A stretch of DNA of 32,790 bases from an uncultured Eubacterium sp. (GTDB lineage Bacteria > Bacillota > Clostridia > Lachnospirales > Lachnospiraceae): contig CAMEWO010000025.1 of assembly GCA_945946665.1 (NCBI GenBank), positions 1 through 32,790 on the forward strand, in the 5' to 3' direction. A program made the position numbers and the translations under genes. Shown here in pieces: positions 15,667-26,994 of this stretch. Each line of letters starts with the position of its first letter. The stretch's first letter is position 1. The notes beneath the pieces were generated by a model that worked only from the letters and a program-made list of their open reading frames with translations, did not search any database and was not told where the DNA came from.

Positions 15667-15709
15667 CTTATGACTCATGTATTATCATATGGATATGGAG
15701 AAGGGAACA

Positions 15710-16807
15710 ATGTACAAAAAAGTAAAAAAGATGTCATATGGATTGATACTGGCAGCTTTGCTGGCGGTATCTTTTACTGCGTGCCAGGCAGATAACAGGC
15801 AGGGCAGGGAAACAGGGATGAATGCAGCAAACCAGTCAGCAGGTCAGGCAGTAGACCAGTCAGCGGGGCAGGTAGCAGATCAGACGGGAAATAAATCAGG
15901 AAATCAGTCAGGAAATCAGTCGGAAAATCAAGTGGCAGGTCGGTCAGCAAACCAGGCAGAAAAGACCACAGAACACCAGCATACTTACCATGAAGAACAG
16001 GTGCCTGGCAGTTGCGTTGCCTACACTAAGACAGTATACACATGTACTGGCTGTGGCGATACATATGAGGAGATTCATGAGGAAGCAGGCTACAGCGGAC
16101 ATCAATATGAGGAAAGAAGAACTCAGGCAACATGTACAGAAGCTGCAAAGATAATATATACATGTTCAGTCTGCAAAGACTCCTATAGCGTTGATGATGA
16201 GAATAACCCTGCACTTGGACATGAATCCGTATTTCAGTCAGTTGTTGTGACAGCAACAGATACCTCCCCGGGAGTTAAGAGATTTGCATGTAAAAGATGT
16301 GGGGAATACAGTGATGTTAATTATGCTCTTCCACACAAGGTTAATGCCTATAATGGAACACAGATTGTCTACGGATATTGGGACAAGGAGTGCGAGAAGG
16401 AGATAGCATCCATACTTGACGAATACAGGAAAGCCAATGGCCTCAGACCATTCCTGTCATATTCCGAGCTTAGTCAGACAGCTCGCACACGGGCAATGGA
16501 GATAGCATACTCATACAGACATAATCATTCACGTCCTACTAATGCATCATGGAGAACAGCATATAACAGTAATCTGGGGACATGTGGTGAAAATATAGCA
16601 GCCGGACAGGAAGATGCAGAGACTGTAATGTATGCCTGGAAGAATTCAAGCAGTCATAATGAAAATATGCTTGACCCTGACTTTGACAGCGTGGGAATAG
16701 GCGTATTTGTGCGGGTGGACTGCGTAGAAAGTGGTGAGGTGACAGTGCCGGACCCTGAGGGCTTATCATATAATGACAGATATTACGTCCAGTCCTTCTC
16801 AGATTAA
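15710..16807 (+). CDS. CAP/SCP-domain lipoprotein with Cys-pair modules
   Basis: A 365-aa exported protein. The N-terminus has a lipoprotein signal peptide (LILAALLAVSFTAC, lipid on the Cys of FTAC), followed by an imperfectly repeated Gln/Asn/Ser/Gly linker (NQSAGQAVDQSAGQ and variants). Next come three CxxC-type segments, YTCTGCGDTYEE, YTCSVCKDSYSV and FACKRCGEYSDV, about 40-50 residues apart, perhaps metal-binding or disulphide modules. The last ~130 residues form a CAP domain: EIASILDEYRKANGL, HNHSRP, TCGENIAAGQ, and AWKNSSSHNENMLDPDFDSVGIGV. CAP domains in bacteria are secreted and mostly uncharacterised. The start at 15710 follows AAGGGA. It probably sits on the outer face of the membrane. 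A second CAP lipoprotein lies at 27516. Confidence 0.88.
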   Translation: MYKKVKKMSYGLILAALLAVSFTACQADNRQGRETGMNAANQSAGQAVDQSAGQVADQTGNKSGNQSGNQSENQVAGRSANQAEKTTEHQHTYHEEQVPGSCVAYTKTVYTCTGCGDTYEEIHEEAGYSGHQYEERRTQATCTEAAKIIYTCSVCKDSYSVDDENNPALGHESVFQSVVVTATDTSPGVKRFACKRCGEYSDVNYALPHKVNAYNGTQIVYGYWDKECEKEIASILDEYRKANGLRPFLSYSELSQTARTRAMEIAYSYRHNHSRPTNASWRTAYNSNLGTCGENIAAGQEDAETVMYAWKNSSSHNENMLDPDFDSVGIGVFVRVDCVESGEVTVPDPEGLSYNDRYYVQSFSD

Positions 16808-16954
16808 ACCCAGGCAGTAAGTATCACAACTGAGTCAGCATACATCACAACTGAGCCAACACAACATAAAGGATGTGTAGACTGACAAAACCACATAATG
16901 TTGTGAAAGCCAGTAAAATACAGGCTTTCAGACAAAAAATATCTGATAATTTCA

Positions 16955-16983
16955 TTGACAAAGGCGTATTATCATTCTATTAT
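16955..16983 (+). promoter_or_regulatory. promoter of the Tyr-rich protein gene
   Basis: TTGACA at 16955-16960, 17-bp spacer and TATTAT at 16978-16983. Upstream at 16905-16929 GAAAGCC/GGCTTTC forms a hairpin that may end the preceding CAP gene transcript. Confidence 0.75.
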
Positions 16984-17023
16984 AAAATTAATTAATAAAA
17001 TACACCAAAGGGGACAGAAAGAT

Positions 17024-17863
17024 ATGGTTAGATTAGCAAAAAGAATCAAAGCTGTTGTATGCGCATCCATTCTGGTGGCATCTACAGCAATTGCAAGTTT
17101 AGTACCTGCAACACCGGTTAAGGCAGAAGCACCTGCAGGCTGTTCAATCAGTATCGTTGCACAGGATGAGTACAATGCCGGAGAGACAGTAAAGATTAAG
17201 ACAAGCTTTACAGACGCAACCAAGGTAACTTATGAATTCTATTCACAGAGCTTCAATCCATATTATGGATATGTACCTTCTACTAAGAAGTTCTCAGTAG
17301 AGAAAGATATTTCGGATGAAGATATTACAACAGGTGATGATGTGGTTATTGACATTCCATCTAATGCACGTGGAACATACACAGTGAAAGCTGTATTTTC
17401 TAATGATGATGATGAGGAAACAACTGTAAAAGCAGCAACTAAGTTATCAGTTAAGAACAGCAGCTATGACAAATCAATGGCTTACTATTACTATTTGAAT
17501 GGTAATAGTGGAAGCATATCAGACCCATATCTGTATTATCTGTTATCAGATGATGAGAATACAGATAAGAATGCATTACTTTACTATTATTACCTGAATA
17601 ATAACAGTGGAAGCTCAACAGTACCATCATGGTATTACTATTACCTTCTTGATGATGATGAAGATAATGATAATAACGCATTACTTTACTATTATTACCT
17701 GAATAATAACAGCACAAGCTCAACAGTACCATCATGGTATTACTATTATCTTCTTGATGATGATGAAGACAACGATAATGATGCGTTACTTTACTATTAT
17801 TATCTGAATAATACCAGCAGCACAACACCATCATGGTATTATTACTATCTTCTTAACAAATAG
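17024..17863 (+). CDS. secreted tyrosine-rich tandem-repeat protein
   Basis: A 279-aa protein I do not recognise. It has a signal peptide (residues 1 to about 35, ending PVKAEA), then an Ig-like beta domain (about 37-144: SISIVAQDEYNAGETVKIKT ... GTYTVKAVFS) containing QSFNPYYGYVPS. From residue 151 to the end it consists of four repeats of about 35 residues. Each has YYYYLN, a short Ser/Asn/Gly/Thr turn, SWYYYYLL, then an acidic DDDEDNDN link. There is no LPXTG-like motif, no membrane helix and no wall-binding domain, so anchoring is unclear. AAGGGG upstream and a consensus promoter suggest good expression. The paired four-Tyr blocks separated by acidic links suggest assembly, stacking or Tyr cross-linking; this is inference only. 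Confidence 0.85.
   Translation: MVRLAKRIKAVVCASILVASTAIASLVPATPVKAEAPAGCSISIVAQDEYNAGETVKIKTSFTDATKVTYEFYSQSFNPYYGYVPSTKKFSVEKDISDEDITTGDDVVIDIPSNARGTYTVKAVFSNDDDEETTVKAATKLSVKNSSYDKSMAYYYYLNGNSGSISDPYLYYLLSDDENTDKNALLYYYYLNNNSGSSTVPSWYYYYLLDDDEDNDNNALLYYYYLNNNSTSSTVPSWYYYYLLDDDEDNDNDALLYYYYLNNTSSTTPSWYYYYLLNK
17474..17860 (+). repeat. four tandem ~105-bp coding repeats
   Basis: Units begin at 17474, 17573, 17678 and 17783. Units 2 and 3 are both exactly 105 bp and nearly identical in DNA as well as protein, which points to recent duplication. Unit 1 is more diverged and unit 4 is truncated at the end of the gene. Confidence 0.9.
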
Positions 17864-17899
17864 AATGTAATTACGAAGTGCAATTATGCATTATATAAT

Positions 17900-17950
17900 A
17901 AGCCCGGCAAGGAAGAATTATGAAAGCACAATTCTTCCTCTGCCGGGCTT
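17900..17950. terminator. long hairpin between convergent genes
   Basis: A 20-bp arm (17900-17919, beginning AAGCCCGGCA) pairs with 17930-17950 with one bulged base. Neither side has a strong T-run, but the stem is very stable and lies between two convergent genes, so it is probably a bidirectional terminator. Confidence 0.75.
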
Positions 17951-17973
17951 AACGTATCAGATATTAATGGTAC

Positions 17974-19998
17974 TTAATAAGTTATATTAAGCTTTATCGT
18001 ATGATTAATACCGCCATACTTCGGATCGTTGAAGTACAGTCTTATGGTGTGGGTTCCAGGCTGCAGACTGTCCAGACTCTTGAAGTAATAATTAGAATTC
18101 TTAGTTGAGTAGGAAAGGGATGGGGATATACCGATACAGTTCATAGCCTCAATCTCCTTTGAAAGTTCTTCCGTTACATGTCCCTTTCGGAAAGTGTACT
18201 CATCCTTGGTGGTTTTAATATACGGGTCAGTCAGAACAATCTCATAGTTGTGGTAAGAGAACTTAGAAACATCCATATCTACATACCCTTCGATACCATC
18301 AACAGTGTTGGTAACACCGTACTGCCACATGTCATACTTGTACTTGAAATCCGGTCCAGGCTCCTTGGCAGTCCAGCGCTTGCTGGTGTAGTAGTTCTTC
18401 TTGTAATACATGGCAAGCCATACCTTGTATTTGCTGGTGAGAGTCTTCGCATCAACAATATTGTACCAGTCGTTGCGGCAGAAATATATCATCGGAGTAT
18501 AACCTGCATCTGCTATCTTATCTGCAAATGTAGTGCAGATTGAGGTTAATGCAGATTTACTTATCTTATACTTGGCAACGCGGTAGCCCTTAGCAGATTC
18601 CCAGTCAAATGCCACCGGATATATGATGTTATACTTCTTAATAAGGTTAATACAGTATTCTGCCTCGGCAGCAGCCTCCTTAGTGTTAATTGCCTGGGAG
18701 AAGAAATATATTCCCACCTGTAATCCGTTGGCGAGGGCACCTTCTATATTCTTCTCAAATGCTTTATCCGTATACAATGTTCCATCAGAACCAGTTGAAC
18801 GTCCTCCGCACTTAATAATTACAAAATCCATGCCAGAAGCCTTGACCTTAGCCCAGTCGATTTTCTTCTTATCACTCTGGTAATGGGATACATCTATACC
18901 GAAGCACATGTCTTTAGTTTCAAGCAATTCCGTGGTGGTTGGTTCATCTTCAACAACAGCAGCTTCATTGGCATCACTGGATTCCTCAACTACGTCACTG
19001 CTTGTCTTGGCGGCAGCGACAGCGGCTTCAGCGGCAGCCTTGGCAGCAGCTTCCTCCTCTGCCTTGATTTTCATCAGGCGTTCATTAACTATATTATTGT
19101 ATGTGTCCTCATCAGGTATTGAATCTACTGATGCAAGATATGTTGCTGTATCAGATTCCTGATTGTAGTACGCCAGTTTCGATGATAAAGCTGATGTTAC
19201 AGCATTATATTCCTTATATGTGAACCCGTCTTTAATAGAGAATGCAGAACTATACTCAAGCTTGTCTGTATATGGGGTATAAGCCTCATCAATAAGTTCG
19301 TCATTAAGTAACCGCTCAGTAACAGCGTCGACAATCTGCTGTTTCTCATTATCAAGCTCTCCGGGAGTGCTGTTGATGGCTGATAAAGCACCAGACATTA
19401 CAGTAAGCTTTTCCGTTGCTTCACCATCTATATCATACAGAATTCCGGAACTGGAATAAATGTTCTGTAATTCCCTTAACTTCTGGGATTTAATAACCTG
19501 ATTAGTCCTCTCCGCCTCAGCCAGCTTTAACTGTTCTTCTGCAATAGATTCTGATTCCGCTATAGAGGCAGCCTCTGCCGTAGCTAGAGCCGCCGCAGTA
19601 TCCCTTGAATGCTTCATATACACAGCAGTTCCACCAATGGCAAGAATTAAAGCAGCCGCTCCAATGGCAGCTCCTGTTATAAGCTTCTTTTTAGATGTTT
19701 TAGATAGCTTGGTAGAATGATTGGTAGAGTGCTTCGAAGAATGGTTCGTAGAAGGCTTTCTTTTACGAGGTTTCTTGGAATGCTCCTTCTGAGGCTTATC
19801 ATGAGAATCATCATGAGAATCATCATAAGAATCATCATAAGAATCATCATAAGAATCATCGTAAGAACCATCATAAGTATCATCCTGAAAATCATCATAA
19901 GTATCATTCTCAAACCCATCAGTATCCTTGTTATCAGTATCATCATCAAATTCATAATCAAGCACATCATCAAGCTGGACTTCCGTATAGTCTTTCAT
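17974..19998 (-). CDS. membrane-anchored GH25 muramidase with acidic repeat tail
   Basis: A 674-aa type II membrane protein. Residues 1-104 are cytoplasmic: acidic at first, with DDSY repeats at 43-66, then Lys/Arg/Ser/His-rich. A membrane helix lies at about 105-128. The outer part begins with a helical Ala/Glu-rich region (130-350), followed by a GH25 lysozyme domain (about 365-575): GIDVSHYQ with D369, DFVIIKCGGRS, VGIYFFSQA and PVAFDWES with the D465/E467 pair. GH25 enzymes cut N-acetylmuramyl-1,4-N-acetylglucosamine bonds in peptidoglycan. The last ~95 residues form an extra C-terminal domain of unknown role. The start at 19998 is 6 bp from GAGAGAG. A cytoplasmic tail on a muramidase is unusual and could link it to a cytoplasmic partner. 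Confidence 0.9.
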   Translation of the reverse strand: MKDYTEVQLDDVLDYEFDDDTDNKDTDGFENDTYDDFQDDTYDGSYDDSYDDSYDDSYDDSHDDSHDKPQKEHSKKPRKRKPSTNHSSKHSTNHSTKLSKTSKKKLITGAAIGAAALILAIGGTAVYMKHSRDTAAALATAEAASIAESESIAEEQLKLAEAERTNQVIKSQKLRELQNIYSSSGILYDIDGEATEKLTVMSGALSAINSTPGELDNEKQQIVDAVTERLLNDELIDEAYTPYTDKLEYSSAFSIKDGFTYKEYNAVTSALSSKLAYYNQESDTATYLASVDSIPDEDTYNNIVNERLMKIKAEEEAAAKAAAEAAVAAAKTSSDVVEESSDANEAAVVEDEPTTTELLETKDMCFGIDVSHYQSDKKKIDWAKVKASGMDFVIIKCGGRSTGSDGTLYTDKAFEKNIEGALANGLQVGIYFFSQAINTKEAAAEAEYCINLIKKYNIIYPVAFDWESAKGYRVAKYKISKSALTSICTTFADKIADAGYTPMIYFCRNDWYNIVDAKTLTSKYKVWLAMYYKKNYYTSKRWTAKEPGPDFKYKYDMWQYGVTNTVDGIEGYVDMDVSKFSYHNYEIVLTDPYIKTTKDEYTFRKGHVTEELSKEIEAMNCIGISPSLSYSTKNSNYYFKSLDSLQPGTHTIRLYFNDPKYGGINHTIKLNITY
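19801..19872 (-). repeat. 12-bp coding microsatellite (DDSY/DDSH repeats)
   Basis: Six units of a 12-bp repeat (plus strand about GAATCATCATAA) encode DGSY, DDSY x3 and DDSH x2 in the cytoplasmic tail of the GH25 protein. The 12-bp unit keeps the frame, so copy number changes would alter tail length only. Confidence 0.85.
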
Positions 19999-20058
19999 AT
20001 TATTCTCTCTCTCATCCTTATTAGTATAGGGTATCCACATGAAGAATACTCAACAGCT

Positions 20059-20087: not shown

Positions 20088-20238
20088 GGATAAATATGGA
20101 GAGGATATTCTTTTATTATATAGAGAAATTAATGTAGAAGCTGAAGAAAAGGAAAAGATAAGATGACAAAAAATAGGCAAAATGTATAGAAAAAGAGAGG
20201 GTAGTGTGTTATAGTAAATACACTGGGTGGGTTGTGTG

Positions 20239-20244
20239 TATAAT
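20239..20244 (+). promoter_or_regulatory. -10 element for the hamAB cassette
   Basis: A perfect TATAAT lies 23 bp before the hamA start. No good -35 was found 16-18 bp upstream, so the promoter may be weak or need an activator. Confidence 0.4.
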
Positions 20245-20266
20245 ATGTTTGAAGGTGGTTTATACA

Positions 20267-21130
20267 ATGGCAGGTATATCAAAGGTACTGGAAACAGAAT
20301 TGAATGGCTTGAAGGTTAATCTTTTCGAATTTGATATTGAAAATGAAGAAAGCTTTAATGAGATAAAAGCATATTTAGTTAATAAAGTAAAAATATCTAA
20401 AGTACATGATATAGAAGAATATGATTTGACGTATTATGGAACAAAAAATTTGAACCCAGATTTTGTAGCTAGATTTAATGAGCAGGTTTCAAAAATCAAT
20501 ATCCCTAAAAAAACGAAAATATCACAATTTGATGTTCGAAGAGAACGCGTGACAGAATGGATGGCACAGTATTTGTTAGAACAAGAATATGGTTGTAAGT
20601 TTTACGATGAAGCTGATAAAAGAGTAAATTTAAAAACCGTTGAAATTGATAAGCATACTGACGGGATAGATGTTCCTGGTATTTGGATAGATAATGATAG
20701 AATTCGATTTGTTGTATGTGAGGTCAAGGCATCTGAAGAAAATAAAATACCATGTGATTCTGTGCAACCTTTACAAGAGGATATTCAGAAAGCTATTGAT
20801 GATGTAGATAATCGGGTTTCTCACGAAATTTTGGAATATATGCATGGTATAAGAAATGTTAAAATGCAGGACGATATATTAGAAAAAATAGTGGACTTCT
20901 TAGCGCAATTAATTGCGGGAGAAAAGAAAGACTTAGCAGATAATATAATGTTTTTCCCGTTTTTACTTAGAAATAACGAGAAAATTGTTCCAGAGATGAA
21001 CATAGACGATTATAAGAATTTTTCTTTACAGGGAGTTAAAAGAGAAAATGTCAAGAATATAATCTTATCATTTAGGAAGAAATTTTCTGAATTTAGCAAT
21101 GAAGTCTATGAAGAGGCGATAGGTGAATAG
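20267..21130 (+). CDS. hamA: HamA-like DUF1837 nuclease, Hachiman anti-phage system
   Basis: A 287-aa cytoplasmic protein that I assign to HamA (DUF1837). The central segment has a PD-(D/E)XK-type core: KHTDGIDVPGIW, acidic residues at D132/D135, then RIRFVVCEVKAS with E152 and K154. Upstream helices include RERVTEWMAQYLLEQEYGCKFY. The rest is helical and ends in an acidic tail. In Hachiman (and related AbpAB) systems this effector is held by the HamB helicase and released to cut DNA when phage replication is sensed. GAAGGTGG sets the start at 20267, 8 bp away. hamB begins 2 bp after the stop, so the two are translationally coupled. The low GC and AT-rich codon use differ from the flanking genes. 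The family call rests on gene order and motif, without a search. Confidence 0.8.
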   Translation: MAGISKVLETELNGLKVNLFEFDIENEESFNEIKAYLVNKVKISKVHDIEEYDLTYYGTKNLNPDFVARFNEQVSKINIPKKTKISQFDVRRERVTEWMAQYLLEQEYGCKFYDEADKRVNLKTVEIDKHTDGIDVPGIWIDNDRIRFVVCEVKASEENKIPCDSVQPLQEDIQKAIDDVDNRVSHEILEYMHGIRNVKMQDDILEKIVDFLAQLIAGEKKDLADNIMFFPFLLRNNEKIVPEMNIDDYKNFSLQGVKRENVKNIILSFRKKFSEFSNEVYEEAIGE

Positions 21131-21132
21131 CA

Positions 21133-24100
21133 ATGGAATATATTGAGAGCATAATAAATACAATAGAAAAAGTGTTTAATGTAAGCGAAGAAAATATTTC
21201 TTCGCTTACTGTTATGCTCTCAGATATTGAAACTAGTCACTTATATAATAAGTTTTCAGCAGAAGAACAAAGTAAGAAATATTTGAATAGTGATTTACTT
21301 TCTAAGGCGAATTTGCTGAATGCGTTATTGGAAATTGTTTTAGAGAATCCTAATATGGATTTAATTGAGAGCGACAAACGAAAAGAGTTACTTGTAGGAT
21401 TATGTGGAACAGTAGCATCCCTGTATGAACAAGTTCTAGATCAGATTAATGATAATGAGTGTTGGGAAAATATGTCATATCTGGTTATGTATAGTATGTT
21501 ATCTTATATGGCAGATAAACAGACAATGTCTGATTTGGCTATTAAGGAATATAATGCTAAATTGACCAAAATGATGAGTTTATACAATGAATTCCCAATA
21601 ATTCAGAAATTAGAATATGATACATACTATCTAATTGTATTATTGATGAGTAATATTAAAAACTATGATGGATTGACACAGTTAAATTCCTTTATTAAAA
21701 GAGCAAATGATAATTTAGATGAGGCTCAAAGGGAAGAGCTTGCAAAAGCTGAATTAGATATAACTGCTGGACTAAAGATTGCTTCTTATGGGAACATTAT
21801 TTATTTGACAACGGTTTTAAAAGAATATCTTTTTAGCGGCAAGATTGATAGTTCGGAAAATCAAGATATATATAGTGTTATTGATATGTATTCATATAAT
21901 GCATTTCATTTGCTGGATAATGAAAGCATTGACTTGAGACTCATTGGGCATTTGTTGCGATATGCATATGAAAGAGTGGCAGAAAATTCAATATGGAACA
22001 TTGCAGAAAAGTCACCATTAATAAGAAAGTTTATCGAAGAAAACCTTTCCAATGGTAATAGATACATATATTCTTTATTGCCATCTCAGAGAGAGGTTAT
22101 TTCGGATGTGTTAACGCCTAAAAAGAGTATTGTTGTTGGAATGCCGACTAGTGCAGGAAAGTCGTTGCTGGCAGAGATGCAGATATTATTTAGTATTCAT
22201 AACTATAAAACAGCCGATTTTAATCCTACAGTATGTTATATTGTTCCAACTAATGCACTTATTGATCAAGTTAAAATTGATTTGCAAAGTGATTTTAAGG
22301 AATTTAATTTTAATATAGAAACAGCATTACCATATTATGATGTTGATGAGATAGAAAATGAAATATTGACGAGAACGCATATTGATATATTAATTAGTAC
22401 ACCCGAAAAATTAGAGGCACTTGTAAGACAGAATCATCCGGCAATACAAAACACTCGTTTAGTTATTATGGATGAAGCTCATAATTTAGGAGACAAATCA
22501 CGAGGCTCTAAATTTGAACTGGTCTTATCGTCTATAAAGCAAAATATGAAAGAGGCAAATTTTCTTTTATTAAGCCCCTTTATTAGTAATGCTCAGGAAA
22601 TAAGTGAGTGGTTAGCCGACTCACCAAGAAATGCAGACATTATTTCCATTGAGTGGGCACCAACCAAACAATATATTGGTTGTAATTTACTTGATAGAAA
22701 GAAAACAAAATCTGTTCTGCAGTTTTACAGATCACCAAGAAACCAATTGGGGACAGAAGATGTAGAAATTTCCCTGAACCTGAATCCGCAGGATGTGAAA
22801 GAAGAACTTGGATTAGATAGTATTGATAATACGGTTCGACTTTGTGTGGTTCTGAATGATTTTATTGAACAGGAAGGGAATATTCTGGTTTTGTGTGGTG
22901 GCAGAGGTACCACTTTGAAATTGGCATCATATACGAAAATGTATTTTGAAGAAAAAGGTATGCTGCCTGATATGAACTGTGACGAGGAAATTCAACGTGC
23001 AATAGAAATTGTAAAGTTAGAAAATGGAGAAAATGATCCTTTAATTGAATGTTTGAAATTTGGTATCTGTTATCATAATTCTGGATTATCAAGTTTGGTC
23101 AAGGAAACTATCGAGGAATTAGTTCGAAATAATAAGATAAAACTTATATTTGCAACAACAACATTGGCACAAGGAATGAATTTCCCGATTAATACGGTTA
23201 TTTTTGATACAGTTAAATTGCGTAATAAAGGTGATTTATCAAATGATGAGTTTTGGAATATAGCAGGGCGTGCTGGTAGAGCATACAAGGATAAAGAGGG
23301 ATATATTATTCTTTCCTATTCTAATTCCCAGAAAGAAACCAAGTCAATAGTGAAAAGATATATTGAATCAGATTTAAAAGAAGTAATATCTTCACTGAAT
23401 GCTTATTTTACGGGAAATAGTACTATAAGTTTTGACTACAATGTGTTAAAAGAACCCAATAATGCACCAATATTAAATCTGCTGCAATATATAAACCATA
23501 TATTAAACATTAGTTATGATTATAATATTAGCCCAAAAGATATTGCTAAAATCAGGGGAATATTAACGGATTCTTATTTGTATCATAGCTTGAGTAAACA
23601 GGAAGGTTTTGTTAATGCACAAAGAAAACTTAATACTTTTGTAGCGCAATATATTCGTCATGTTAACGAAAATAAAAAGGAAGATATGGCGAAGGCTGAT
23701 GAATTAGGTATTAGTGATATAAGTTACACAAAGGTTAAAGATATCATAGGTGCGTTTATCCATAGACTGAAAGAAAACGGAGATGATGAGTATAAGGCTT
23801 CAGAAATTATTCTTCGAACTAAGAATATTGAGCGCTTGACAGAGATTATTAATATTATTGCAAAAATTCCTGAAATAAAAATTGATATGTTAGGGCAAGG
23901 GACGATGGATCCAGAAAGTATAGCTAAGTTGCTTATGGGCTGGGTAAATGGCGATAAGGTAAGAGATATTGCGAAAGAAATTAAACGACCAGGGCAAAGC
24001 GATGAAGATGCAATTTCTTTATGCAATCGTTATCTTAATAGCCAGATGAAGTCTTATATGCCATGGGGAATAAATATATATCAGACCGTGAGCTTTGATT

Positions 24101-24372
24101 TGCAGACAGAAAATGCACAAATGTTACCTTCTTATATTTATTATGGGGTATCAAGCAAGGAAGCAGTAATTGTATCGAAGTTGGGGGTGCCAAGATTTGC
24201 TGTTGGTAATGTGTTGAGGGTTCTTAAAGAGAAGAATCCTGAATTACCAATTACTATAGATAATATGAATCGGTTAAGGGCGGCAATAAACAAAATAGAA
24301 TCTGCTGATTATGAAATCGAAAATGTGTCAAATAAGGTAATTAAGGAAATTGTTGATAAGCGAATCGGGTAG
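21133..24372 (+). CDS. hamB: HamB-like Ski2-type DEAH helicase, Hachiman anti-phage system
   Basis: A 1079-aa superfamily 2 helicase. An N-terminal helical region of about 310 residues precedes the motor: LPSQREVI (Q-like), Walker A MPTSAGKS (337-344), motif Ia PTNALIDQV, VIMDEAHN with the DEAH box at 447-450, a motif III that reads LLLSPFISN rather than SAT, then ATTTLAQGMNFP and the arginine-finger motif AGRAGRA (711-717). The C-terminal ~300 residues are helical. This arrangement matches HamB of Hachiman, which tracks DNA and controls the HamA nuclease. AGGTG at 21121-21125 lies 8 bp before the ATG. No clear terminator follows; the next gene starts 110 bp downstream with its own promoter. 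The family call rests on length, motifs and the DUF1837 partner. Confidence 0.85.
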   Translation: MEYIESIINTIEKVFNVSEENISSLTVMLSDIETSHLYNKFSAEEQSKKYLNSDLLSKANLLNALLEIVLENPNMDLIESDKRKELLVGLCGTVASLYEQVLDQINDNECWENMSYLVMYSMLSYMADKQTMSDLAIKEYNAKLTKMMSLYNEFPIIQKLEYDTYYLIVLLMSNIKNYDGLTQLNSFIKRANDNLDEAQREELAKAELDITAGLKIASYGNIIYLTTVLKEYLFSGKIDSSENQDIYSVIDMYSYNAFHLLDNESIDLRLIGHLLRYAYERVAENSIWNIAEKSPLIRKFIEENLSNGNRYIYSLLPSQREVISDVLTPKKSIVVGMPTSAGKSLLAEMQILFSIHNYKTADFNPTVCYIVPTNALIDQVKIDLQSDFKEFNFNIETALPYYDVDEIENEILTRTHIDILISTPEKLEALVRQNHPAIQNTRLVIMDEAHNLGDKSRGSKFELVLSSIKQNMKEANFLLLSPFISNAQEISEWLADSPRNADIISIEWAPTKQYIGCNLLDRKKTKSVLQFYRSPRNQLGTEDVEISLNLNPQDVKEELGLDSIDNTVRLCVVLNDFIEQEGNILVLCGGRGTTLKLASYTKMYFEEKGMLPDMNCDEEIQRAIEIVKLENGENDPLIECLKFGICYHNSGLSSLVKETIEELVRNNKIKLIFATTTLAQGMNFPINTVIFDTVKLRNKGDLSNDEFWNIAGRAGRAYKDKEGYIILSYSNSQKETKSIVKRYIESDLKEVISSLNAYFTGNSTISFDYNVLKEPNNAPILNLLQYINHILNISYDYNISPKDIAKIRGILTDSYLYHSLSKQEGFVNAQRKLNTFVAQYIRHVNENKKEDMAKADELGISDISYTKVKDIIGAFIHRLKENGDDEYKASEIILRTKNIERLTEIINIIAKIPEIKIDMLGQGTMDPESIAKLLMGWVNGDKVRDIAKEIKRPGQSDEDAISLCNRYLNSQMKSYMPWGINIYQTVSFDLQTENAQMLPSYIYYGVSSKEAVIVSKLGVPRFAVGNVLRVLKEKNPELPITIDNMNRLRAAINKIESADYEIENVSNKVIKEIVDKRIG

Positions 24373-24422: not shown

Positions 24423-24482
24423 CAAAATAGTTTGATTTATTACAAAAATACTAAAATACGTAAGTACGGAGGGGATAATATT

Positions 24483-25535
24483 ATGAGATCTTTCATTAAA
24501 CGGGCAGGTGCCATAATGGTGGCTGCAACGCTGGTTGTGACCAGTGGATTATTCAGCACACAGGTTAAGGCGGCTTCAAGACCCAATATAACTGATGTTA
24601 GCGTATCAAGTGATACTGTATCGGCGGGAGGAACAGTTACTGTAAGCATAGAATATCAAAGTGATTCGCCTGTTACAGTCCAGATTAATTGCTATAATCC
24701 ATATGCTACATATGATTACAATTTATATTCATATGGAATAAGTGTTCCTAATTATCAATATGGTGGAATTGGAGGATTTTCGGCATCAGGAGCAGGAGCA
24801 GCAAGTGCACCGGGATTTTTTGGAGTAGTAAATATACCGGTTACTGTTCCGTCCACAGCATATGGAAGCTATGTGATATCGGCAAAGGTGACGAATGCTT
24901 TAGGTACTGACACTGGTTCGGGTTCGCTCTTTGTTAGTAATACAACATTGGATACTGCAAAACCATCACTTCTTAGTGCCACTGTAGGAATAAAAAATGA
25001 TGGAAGTAAGCAGTATGTGGAAATAACAGCAACAGCAACAGATGATTACTCAAGAGCAGGTCAGACATCTTCAAGTGTTGCGTCAGTAAGTGTTGCATTC
25101 GAGAATGTTGAACAGCCTGGAACATGGACAAAGACAGTTACATTATATCCTCTTAATAAGATATATGTTGGAAGAATTGATATATCATCAATTGAGACAA
25201 CAGGTACATATGTACTCAATTATGCTCAGGTTATTGATACATCAGGAAATATTGCGACATATAAAAAATCAGGAACTACACTTATGTCAAGTTCATCAGA
25301 TGTGAAATTCTTTCCAAGTAATATGAATAAAGTAACATTCCAGGTAGGAGATGCTGCAGGTCAGCCAGTTAAAGATAATAAAAACGAAACAACACAGGCA
25401 GGAACAGGGAATGACCCTAATCTGTCTCCTAAGACATCAGAGAATGGGGTAATAATTCCAGCTCTTATTATGCTGGCAGTTGTTTTATCAGGAAGTGTAT
25501 CTGTAGTAACTGCTATGGCAAGGAAAGTGAAATAA
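24483..25535 (+). CDS. secreted beta-rich surface protein with SPKTS sorting-like tail
   Basis: A 350-aa exported protein. It has a signal peptide (MRSFIKRAGAIMVAATLVVT, cleaved near QVKAA), then an Ig-like domain (about 33-150) with Tyr-rich INCYNPYATYDYNLYSYG and GGIGGFSASGAGAASAPGFFG segments. A second beta domain follows (about 165-300, including EITATATDDYSRAGQ and GTYVLNYAQVIDTSGN). The end has SPKTS (315-319), a hydrophobic helix and the basic tail ARKVK. This resembles a class B-type wall-sorting signal (S/P-P-x-T-G) with Gly replaced by Ser, so it may be anchored or merely membrane-held. The start at 24483 follows GGAGGGG. The signal peptide and first domain resemble the Tyr-rich repeat protein at 17024, suggesting paralogues. 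Function unknown. Confidence 0.85.
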   Translation: MRSFIKRAGAIMVAATLVVTSGLFSTQVKAASRPNITDVSVSSDTVSAGGTVTVSIEYQSDSPVTVQINCYNPYATYDYNLYSYGISVPNYQYGGIGGFSASGAGAASAPGFFGVVNIPVTVPSTAYGSYVISAKVTNALGTDTGSGSLFVSNTTLDTAKPSLLSATVGIKNDGSKQYVEITATATDDYSRAGQTSSSVASVSVAFENVEQPGTWTKTVTLYPLNKIYVGRIDISSIETTGTYVLNYAQVIDTSGNIATYKKSGTTLMSSSSDVKFFPSNMNKVTFQVGDAAGQPVKDNKNETTQAGTGNDPNLSPKTSENGVIIPALIMLAVVLSGSVSVVTAMARKVK

Positions 25536-25722: not shown

Positions 25723-26994
25723 ATGAGAAAGAAGTTACTTGCACTTTTAATGTGCGCAACAATGGTTCTCGGTACAGTTGTAACAGCTTCAGCTGCAACA
25801 TCTGAGAGCGATGCAAAGAAAGTATACGGCGACAACTATAATAAGTTTGCAGCTGAGTACTATCCAGAAGATTCAATTGTTAAGGCTGATGCTTACAACG
25901 GAAAGAAAGGTACTGTAGAGTATGGTTACCTTGATGGTACTGCAGCAGGTCTTTCTGATCAGTTCACACCTGTAGTTGTATACAAGGCTGGTGATAACTA
26001 CGCAGCTCTTGGTGTAACAAAGAATCAGTACTATGCAGCTAAGGCAGTAATGAAAGTAGATAAGAAATTGGAAGTTACTGAGGGTGCTTCTGAGTCAGTA
26101 GCACAAGCAGCAGAGAGAAGAGTTTCAGAAGGTGTAACAAACGGCAGTATTACAGCTGATGGTGTATATGCTGTAACTGTTAAGGATGATAACGCAAATT
26201 CAAAGCAGGTTGTAACAGTTAAACTTGCTTCTGGAGTTCCATCTTATGATAACTTTACAGAGGGATATGTAACTAACACAGAATTATATGTTAAGGCTCC
26301 TAGAAATGGAGATGCAACAGCTGCTAATAACCTTGTAAAGGGTTCTAAGAGCATTCTTAAGTCAACAGATGAGAACGCTTATGGTACACTCTATGCTAAC
26401 ATTTCAGCTGGTGATGCTTTAGCAGCTGATTTAGATGCTGTTATTTCAGCTATCGACGGCAAGGTATTCACTAAGGATGCAGTAGCTGTTAAGGTTACAG
26501 CTTACCTTCAGGGAACAATTGCTACAGAGAATCTTGGTCTTGAGTATGCAAACATCTATGGTGGTAATGCTAAGCTTCTTTACAATGTAGATAAGCTTCA
26601 GGCAGGAACATACACATTTGATTCAGACCTTATCTCAAGAACAGCATTCAAGGATGCTGCTGCAGTTAACGTATTCCAGCCAACACTTGCAAAGACAAAG
26701 TTCGATACAGAGTTTGGTACTCTTGTTAAGGATTTCGTAAAGGTTGCTACAGTTGAAGTTGGTAAGACAATCACATTCGATAACGATGCAACATTCGTAG
26801 ATGGTGTATTCGTATTCGATAAGGGTGAGCTTGCTGCAGAGCCAGAGGCAGACAAGAACGATGGCGTATCTGATAAGACAACAGATAACACAGCTTCACC
26901 AAAGACAGGTGATGTAGCTCCAATCGCAGCTCTTGCAGTTGTAATGATGGGTGCTTTCGGTGCTATGGTTGTAGCTTCTAAGAAGAGAGCTTAA
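25723..26994 (+). CDS. sortase-anchored surface protein (SPKTGD signal), unknown function
   Basis: A 423-aa exported protein. The signal peptide is MRKKLLALLMCATMVLGTVV with cleavage near TASAAT. The mature part has no recognisable domain; it is rich in Ala, Asp, Lys and Val, with beta-rich composition. The end is a clear wall-sorting signal: SPKTGD (392-397), a hydrophobic helix (VAPIAALAVVMMGAFGAMVV) and the tail SKKRA. SPKTG-type motifs are recognised by class B sortases in clostridia, so the protein should be linked to peptidoglycan; no sortase is in this window. A consensus promoter, an optimal ribosome site (AAAGGAGG), a strong terminator and AAG/GCT/GTT/ACA-biased codons suggest high expression. 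It could be an abundant surface-layer-like component. Confidence 0.88.
   Translation: MRKKLLALLMCATMVLGTVVTASAATSESDAKKVYGDNYNKFAAEYYPEDSIVKADAYNGKKGTVEYGYLDGTAAGLSDQFTPVVVYKAGDNYAALGVTKNQYYAAKAVMKVDKKLEVTEGASESVAQAAERRVSEGVTNGSITADGVYAVTVKDDNANSKQVVTVKLASGVPSYDNFTEGYVTNTELYVKAPRNGDATAANNLVKGSKSILKSTDENAYGTLYANISAGDALAADLDAVISAIDGKVFTKDAVAVKVTAYLQGTIATENLGLEYANIYGGNAKLLYNVDKLQAGTYTFDSDLISRTAFKDAAAVNVFQPTLAKTKFDTEFGTLVKDFVKVATVEVGKTITFDNDATFVDGVFVFDKGELAAEPEADKNDGVSDKTTDNTASPKTGDVAPIAALAVVMMGAFGAMVVASKKRA

Follow-up and report, generated by a model that had tools for sequence, protein, structure and literature searches.

A lineage-restricted, putatively secreted protein with a tandem tyrosine-block repeat array in an uncultured Eubacterium sp.

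Results

The repeat gene and its neighbourhood

The window analysed here, the whole stretch of 32,790 nucleotides, spans a complete contig (G000:C25); the genome to which it belongs measures 2.45 Mb and is split into 48 contigs. An open reading frame of 279 codons was confirmed on the forward strand at 17024..17863, from ATG to TAG, where an earlier note, made from the sequence alone, had placed a gene for a secreted repeat protein. The gene is preceded on the same strand by a promoter-like site, TTGACA-17-TATTAT (16955..16983), which agrees with the consensus at 11 of 12 positions, a match to consensus and not a proof of function, and by a putative ribosome-binding site, AAGGGGA (17008..17014), read from the sequence 9 bases before the ATG. 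On the 3' side, a strong hairpin (17899..17951, no strand assigned) lies between the repeat gene and a convergent GH25 gene, and the segment 17861-17965 containing it folds at -41.7 kcal/mol (z -7.36). The hairpin is terminator-like, has no clear T run and is absent from the terminator-scan list. The GC content of the repeat gene is 0.35 and its GC3 is 0.29; since this GC3 lies inside the range of the 18 window genes measured (0.22-0.49), composition does not mark the gene as foreign. An opposite-strand ORF of 127 codons (17451-17834) overlaps the repeat array. In L011, a contig closely similar to the window, 112 bp are inserted relative to the window at 16844, just upstream of the repeat gene, and this insertion consists, in part at least, of additional copies of local sequence around 16821-16856.

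The surroundings are secreted or wall-related in character, with two CAP proteins and the GH25 protein recognised by Pfam and an LCP-type protein and Ig2 recognised by eye. The upstream neighbour, CAP1 (15677..16807, forward strand), encodes a secreted CAP-domain protein (Pfam CAP, 4.8e-14), whose gene lies on the same strand as the repeat gene. Its residues from about 100 to 220 comprise Cys-rich, zinc-ribbon-like segments (by eye), which match parts of very long congener frames (e.g. 1952 and 2426 aa). The convergent neighbour (17974..20040, reverse strand) encodes a GH25 muramidase-type protein (Pfam Glyco_hydro_25, 1.9e-30) with a TM-like segment and, N-terminal of it, DDS/YDDS repeats (by eye); its gene carries a 12-bp array at 19798-19907, and the aligned array is gapped in L011 from 19818 on. 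Beyond it lies a Hachiman-like candidate defence pair, composed of a HamA-like protein (20204-21130; PDC-M23A, E 7e-9) and a helicase (21133-24372; PDC-M23B 2.7e-154, HamB 2.7e-66). The GC content of this pair, 0.31-0.32, is the lowest among the 18 window genes measured. Two further genes, at 24480-25535 and 25723-26994, encode secreted proteins in which sortase-type tails, SPKTS / SPKTG, were recognised by eye, and for one of these sortase-tailed neighbours NCBIfam gave a sub-cut-off match (E 0.033).

The first of them, Ig2 (24480..25535, forward strand), is a possible distant paralogue of the N-terminal domain of the repeat protein. The alignment score of 59 between this domain and the first domain of Ig2 was reached by 4 of 2000 shuffles, and BLASTP between Ig2 and the N-terminal part gave E 5e-4 with the signal peptide and 0.005, over 28 residues, without it. 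A two-sequence profile of both domains found these two proteins only in 397 family genomes, and at E <= 0.01 Ig2 was present in 1 of 22 genus genomes, its own.

The gene order spoIID-M23-amylase-hemolysin III is kept in the genomes G016, G007 and G004, in the latter two together with glgP. Downstream of hemolysin III the content differs in each of the three, with a phosphatase and ABC genes, a MATE-type exporter, or MscL, GGDEF and an ATPase pair (by eye). A tblastn search of the seven genome stretches compared, at E 1e-5, recovered no window gene from the part that begins with CAP1. The G002 and G009 stretches contained the amylase only, that of G011 only the amylase, M23, spoIID and the end of glgP, and hemolysin III was not found in the 15 kb of G006 examined. 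Judged from gene order, three sister genomes carry different genes here in place of the segment with the repeat gene and the Hachiman-like pair.

Secretion, N-terminal domain and anchoring

In agreement with the claim that the protein is secreted, a Sec-type signal peptide was recognised by eye at residues 1-34 (17024..17125, forward strand), with an n-region MVRLAKRIK, a hydrophobic core and an AxA-type end (PVKA|EA); the site ending at residue 34 is one of seven candidate positions by pattern. It is followed by a predicted N-terminal beta-sandwich domain (residues 38-145; 17135..17458, forward strand), which a single-sequence AlphaFold model presents as all-beta, the mean pLDDT of ten-residue blocks being 58-83 from residue 41 on. 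The one domain claimed earlier stands as a single, predicted all-beta domain; the label Ig-like is supported only loosely, at the level of fold: in a Foldseek search against the PDB, 0 of 1816 matches reached E <= 0.001, the best having E 1.3e-3. Among the 50 matches listed, the targets included SoxY, Ig, complement and LPMO-type beta proteins, several being of Ig-fold type, with probabilities of 0.77-1.00, and the TM-scores on the whole query were low (0.16-0.29). The picture from BFVD was equally vague, with E <= 0.001 in three of 721 matches and poor TM-scores for these, and Pfam returned for the domain Cupredoxin_1 alone, below cut-off. The protein ends in PSWYYYYLLNK (by eye). No sortase-type tail (LPXTG/NPXTG-like motif, hydrophobic stretch, positive tail) was found in it by eye, in contrast to the two neighbours that have one, no membrane anchor was seen by eye, and no NCBIfam anchor model matched up to E 0.1. 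A pI of 4.05 was calculated for the mature protein, which would make it strongly acidic.

The tyrosine repeat array

The remainder of the protein consists of four tandem units on the forward strand, as had been noted earlier with a unit length of about 35 residues. Unit 1 (17462..17572) has 37 residues with YYYY and YLYY blocks and the link SDDENTDKN; unit 2 (17573..17677) and unit 3 (17678..17782) have 35 residues, 105 bp, each, with two YYYY blocks and the links DDDEDNDNN and DDDEDNDND; unit 4 (17783..17860) is truncated to 26 residues, with two YYYY blocks and no link. Two YYYY blocks per unit therefore hold for units 2-4, but the array as a whole has seven YYYY blocks and one YLYY rather than eight YYYY, and a DDDEDNDN separator, also part of the earlier description, applies to two of the three links but not to the first. 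The consensus of the array is ALLYYYYLNNNSGSSTVPSWYYYYLLDDDEDNDNN. Thirteen columns are invariant across all four units, mostly the tyrosine blocks with the adjacent Leu, the rest being one Asn, one Ser and one Pro. Tyrosine makes up 32 of the last 132-133 residues (24%), and the 132-residue repeat region contains three Gly, none of them in the acidic links. In 20000 residue shuffles of the tail, YYYY occurred 0.30 times on average and at most three times, compared with the seven blocks observed. Outside the repeat gene, YYYY was found in none of the six frames of the 32.8-kb window. At the DNA level, a YYYY(L/F) pattern had seven matches each in the repeat gene and in its copy in G009:C44, and it occurred twice within 1 kb nowhere else in 22 genus genomes (list, by eye).

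A multi-repeat structure prediction, as the earlier note had suggested, was obtained with AlphaFold. When the C-terminal tail was modelled alone, strands were placed on 8 of 8 tyrosine blocks, but with a mean pLDDT of 45 and a pTM of 0.28; the full-length model placed strands on 7 of 8, with tail pLDDT below 40. The tyrosine-block regions had a mean pLDDT of 30-52 per ten-residue block, so the strands are predicted at low confidence. They would suit hairpins but establish no fold for the tail. Since there is no deep family, there is no covariation.

Families, literature and distribution

The claim that the protein belongs to no named family was borne out in Pfam, NCBIfam, PHROGs and the PDB, and no characterised family was found. 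No Pfam or NCBIfam model reached cut-off for the whole protein, its N-terminal part or its repeat part, and the sub-cut-off matches up to E 0.1 (Cupredoxin_1, INCENP_ARK-bind, DUF5067) were unrelated. PHROGs gave no match, and the PDB sequence search gave chance-level chain matches alone, among which the fibronectin-type chain 1x4y_A (E 0.21 and 0.04) and KtrA 5but_A (E 4.4e-4 with the two-row profile A2) were taken as chance matches. No such protein was described among the literature matches listed, from a coverage outside which most subscription journals lie. The general plan, in which a secreted protein combines aromatic repeats with an Ig-like domain, is known from Gram-positive bacteria; the exact repeat was seen in no family library or literature listing searched.

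The protein is lineage-restricted, with a narrow spread among the genomes searched, the genome draws being samples that overlap. In full length it was present in 2 of 61 genomes of the set of relatives, its own and G009, and the search of genome contigs returned one locus, L011, which by length and match is the same contig as G009:C44. No full-length match was found in viral contigs, plasmids or phages. L011 is 9 kb long and shares 96-99% identity with the window across three main aligned pieces, with protein identities of 98% for GH25 and 99% for CAP1. The amylase of G009, however, is only 57% identical to that of the window, and therefore the contig is probably misbinned or recently transferred. 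The nearest relative by amylase is G011 (97% identity), in which neither the repeat gene nor CAP1 was matched and GH25 matches were at paralogue level only; this need not mean a true absence, since the completeness of that genome is 77% and the contig breaks off about 100 bases past the amylase match.

Searches at order level (392 genomes) and phylum level (398) returned, beyond the gene itself, one noise hit each (L138 and L139, E 1.3e-4). Both lie in unrelated proteins, so that with a query of such biased composition an E of around 1e-4 has to be regarded as noise. For the N-terminal part, 17 genus-level rows beyond self, G009:C44 and Ig2 (E 0.009 to 0.36) were rejected; the 13 whose reading frames were read by eye, all but L023, L028, L029 and L030, are DegV-type, ABC-transporter, aldolase-type, ClpB-type and other proteins without repeats. 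The repeat part matched in 39 of 397 family-level genomes at E <= 0.1, its own included, and L089, L090, L091, L092 and L097 were set aside as low-complexity frames, wall-binding-repeat-like proteins or unrelated. When the collected loci were scanned for frames with two or more tyrosine runs or high tyrosine content, the gene's own loci, the wall-binding-repeat-like L090 and four short Tyr-rich frames in three loci from other searches (L002, L044, L047) were obtained. In viral contigs, a first pattern had one match in each of six contigs and a second had none.

Translation and age of the array

Synonymous divergence exceeded nonsynonymous divergence in all six unit pairs, with pS/pN values of 0.63/0.25, 0.63/0.29, 0.66/0.34, 0.26/0.04, 0.41/0.12 and 0.35/0.14, the pairs not being independent of one another. 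This excess argues that the array is translated in the forward frame and that its protein sequence is kept by selection, as far as comparison of the units can tell. The central units, described in the earlier note as near-identical, are both 105 bp long and share 33 of 35 residues, but they differ at 8 of 105 bases, of which five were counted as synonymous. When eight differences were thrown at random, at least five were synonymous with a probability of 0.06, so this pair alone is weak evidence of selection. The same differences weaken the claim of a recent expansion: with a pS of 0.26 between units 2 and 3, and of 0.35-0.66 between the others, the array appears not to have expanded very recently. 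The gene in L011 is identical to that in the window (0 of 840 bases differ). This was rejected as a sign of strong constraint, since the gene sits in an identical tract of 992 bp and the same comparison contains two more identical tracts, 1006 and 914 bp long.

Discussion

The reading favoured here, put forward tentatively and at somewhat less than even probability, is that the gene encodes a lineage-restricted secreted surface or matrix protein, which would act through beta-strand pairing and aromatic stacking between copies. A Sec signal peptide would be followed by one Ig-like beta-sandwich and four beta-hairpin units, in each of which two short strands of consecutive tyrosines, aromatic on both faces, would be joined by a Ser/Asn/Thr-Pro turn. 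The acidic links would serve as spacers between the hairpins and maintain their solubility, and they may respond to Ca2+. Within a strand, a run of four tyrosines points both ways, and a hairpin array would thus expose aromatic ladders on both sides; the strands could pair edge to edge and stack with the copies of neighbouring molecules, forming a sticky surface or a matrix layer. The array itself is proposed to hold the protein at the surface or in the matrix because no sortase or membrane anchor was seen in it. The assembly, the surface location and any effect of Ca2+ are what we infer, and among the genes of the window we recognised no partner for assembly. A more far-reaching reading, which is unlikely, is that the protein is a new kind of extracellular building block in one gut lineage, in which the array, hung on the Ig-like domain, would pair end to end and edge to edge into ladder-like sheets or fibres, possibly tuned by Ca2+.

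The main rival to self-assembly is glycan binding, itself rather doubtful, in which the paired tyrosine strands would be aromatic platforms that hold the protein on polysaccharide as a glycan- or wall-binding module. The ligand, a suggestion held with similar reserve, could be a wall polymer, an exopolysaccharide or a dietary glycan, bound by a protein analogous to the choline- and glucan-binding ones without being a member of them. Glucan-binding repeats with conserved Gly and aromatics, and with an affinity rising with repeat number, are described in PMC12375890. The two neighbours from wall-related families (CAP, GH25) fit such a role, as do the weak matches of the N-domain model to porphyran-binding CBM and LPMO folds (E 3e-3 to 2e-2) and two chance-level matches of the repeat region which are of wall-binding-repeat type by eye (L090, E 4.2e-4; L092, E 4.1e-3). 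However, non-homologous frames match as strongly or more (L089, E 3.4e-7; L138, L139), neither Pfam nor NCBIfam has a repeat model of this type that matches up to E 0.1, and a unit of 35 residues with three Gly in 132 differs from choline-binding / CW_binding repeats, whose unit is about 20 residues. It is also unlikely that this is a young orphan gene, with repeats grown by slippage and unequal exchange and a low-complexity tail that has a spacer or generic sticky role at most. Its restriction, within the searched genomes, to a single lineage, the replacement of the segment in three sister genomes, the low GC (0.35), the repetitiveness and the low model confidence would all agree with this, and a young gene without an important role also fits the narrow distribution; yet the synonymous excess between units and the invariant tyrosine positions argue that the protein sequence is kept, and the near-consensus promoter also speaks against it.

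Tyrosine cross-links had been raised in the earlier note as well. A coat or matrix protein cross-linked in the dityrosine manner is very improbable: the 32 Tyr in 132 residues speak for it, and nothing else but composition does, inspection of the window's proteins by eye, and for six of them also a Pfam scan, revealed no peroxidase or oxidase in the window, and the likely host is a strict anaerobe. Scarcely credible is an array untranslated in the forward frame, where the opposite-strand ORF or the DNA itself would matter. The 127-codon reverse ORF does exist, but over 34 codons units 2 and 3 have no synonymous and seven nonsynonymous differences in its frame, compared with four synonymous and two nonsynonymous in the forward frame, and Rfam gave no match at gathering score in 16700-18100. 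The synonymous excess supports translation of the repeat region, and assembly through paired tyrosine strands is the reading tentatively retained. If the array self-assembles or binds glycan, it would be a small, regular, natural tyrosine-strand repeat outside the family libraries searched, on which aromatic beta assembly could be modelled, and a candidate factor for colonisation or matrix formation in a gut commensal lineage. Should it do neither, a clear lineage-restricted secreted repeat gene still remains.

Several known systems may be set beside the repeat protein. RTX-type Ca2+-binding repeats are GGxGxDxUx nonapeptides, and no such motif was found by eye in its translation. The Ig2 protein shares with it a signal peptide, a similar first domain and an NPY stretch followed by further Tyr, but has no YYYY array; instead its chain extends further and ends, as judged by eye, in a tail of sortase type. 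With choline- and glucan-binding repeats (YG, CW_binding) it has in common tandem short units, clustered aromatics, beta structure and occurrence in secreted Gram-positive proteins; it differs in having no Pfam or NCBIfam profile match, no Gly-x-aromatic pattern (by eye), and a 35-residue unit with two tyrosine strands and acidic links, whereas the glucan-binding domain is a beta-solenoid according to PMC12375890. TasA/CalY, the sortase-independent matrix filaments of PMC13082335, offer a possible parallel at the level of general plan. The repeat protein is likewise Gram-positive, secreted and without a sortase tail, and could polymerise outside the cell, but no chaperone-like partner was recognised in the window. 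In fungal adhesins, aromatic belts and cross-beta sequences mediate homotypic adhesion, as PMC8398270 describes. Flo11 and Als5, discussed there, are fungal, their self-association is reported in that paper and only proposed here, and they are likened by principle and not by sequence; the possible likeness lies in self-association via aromatic and beta-strand contacts on secreted surface proteins.
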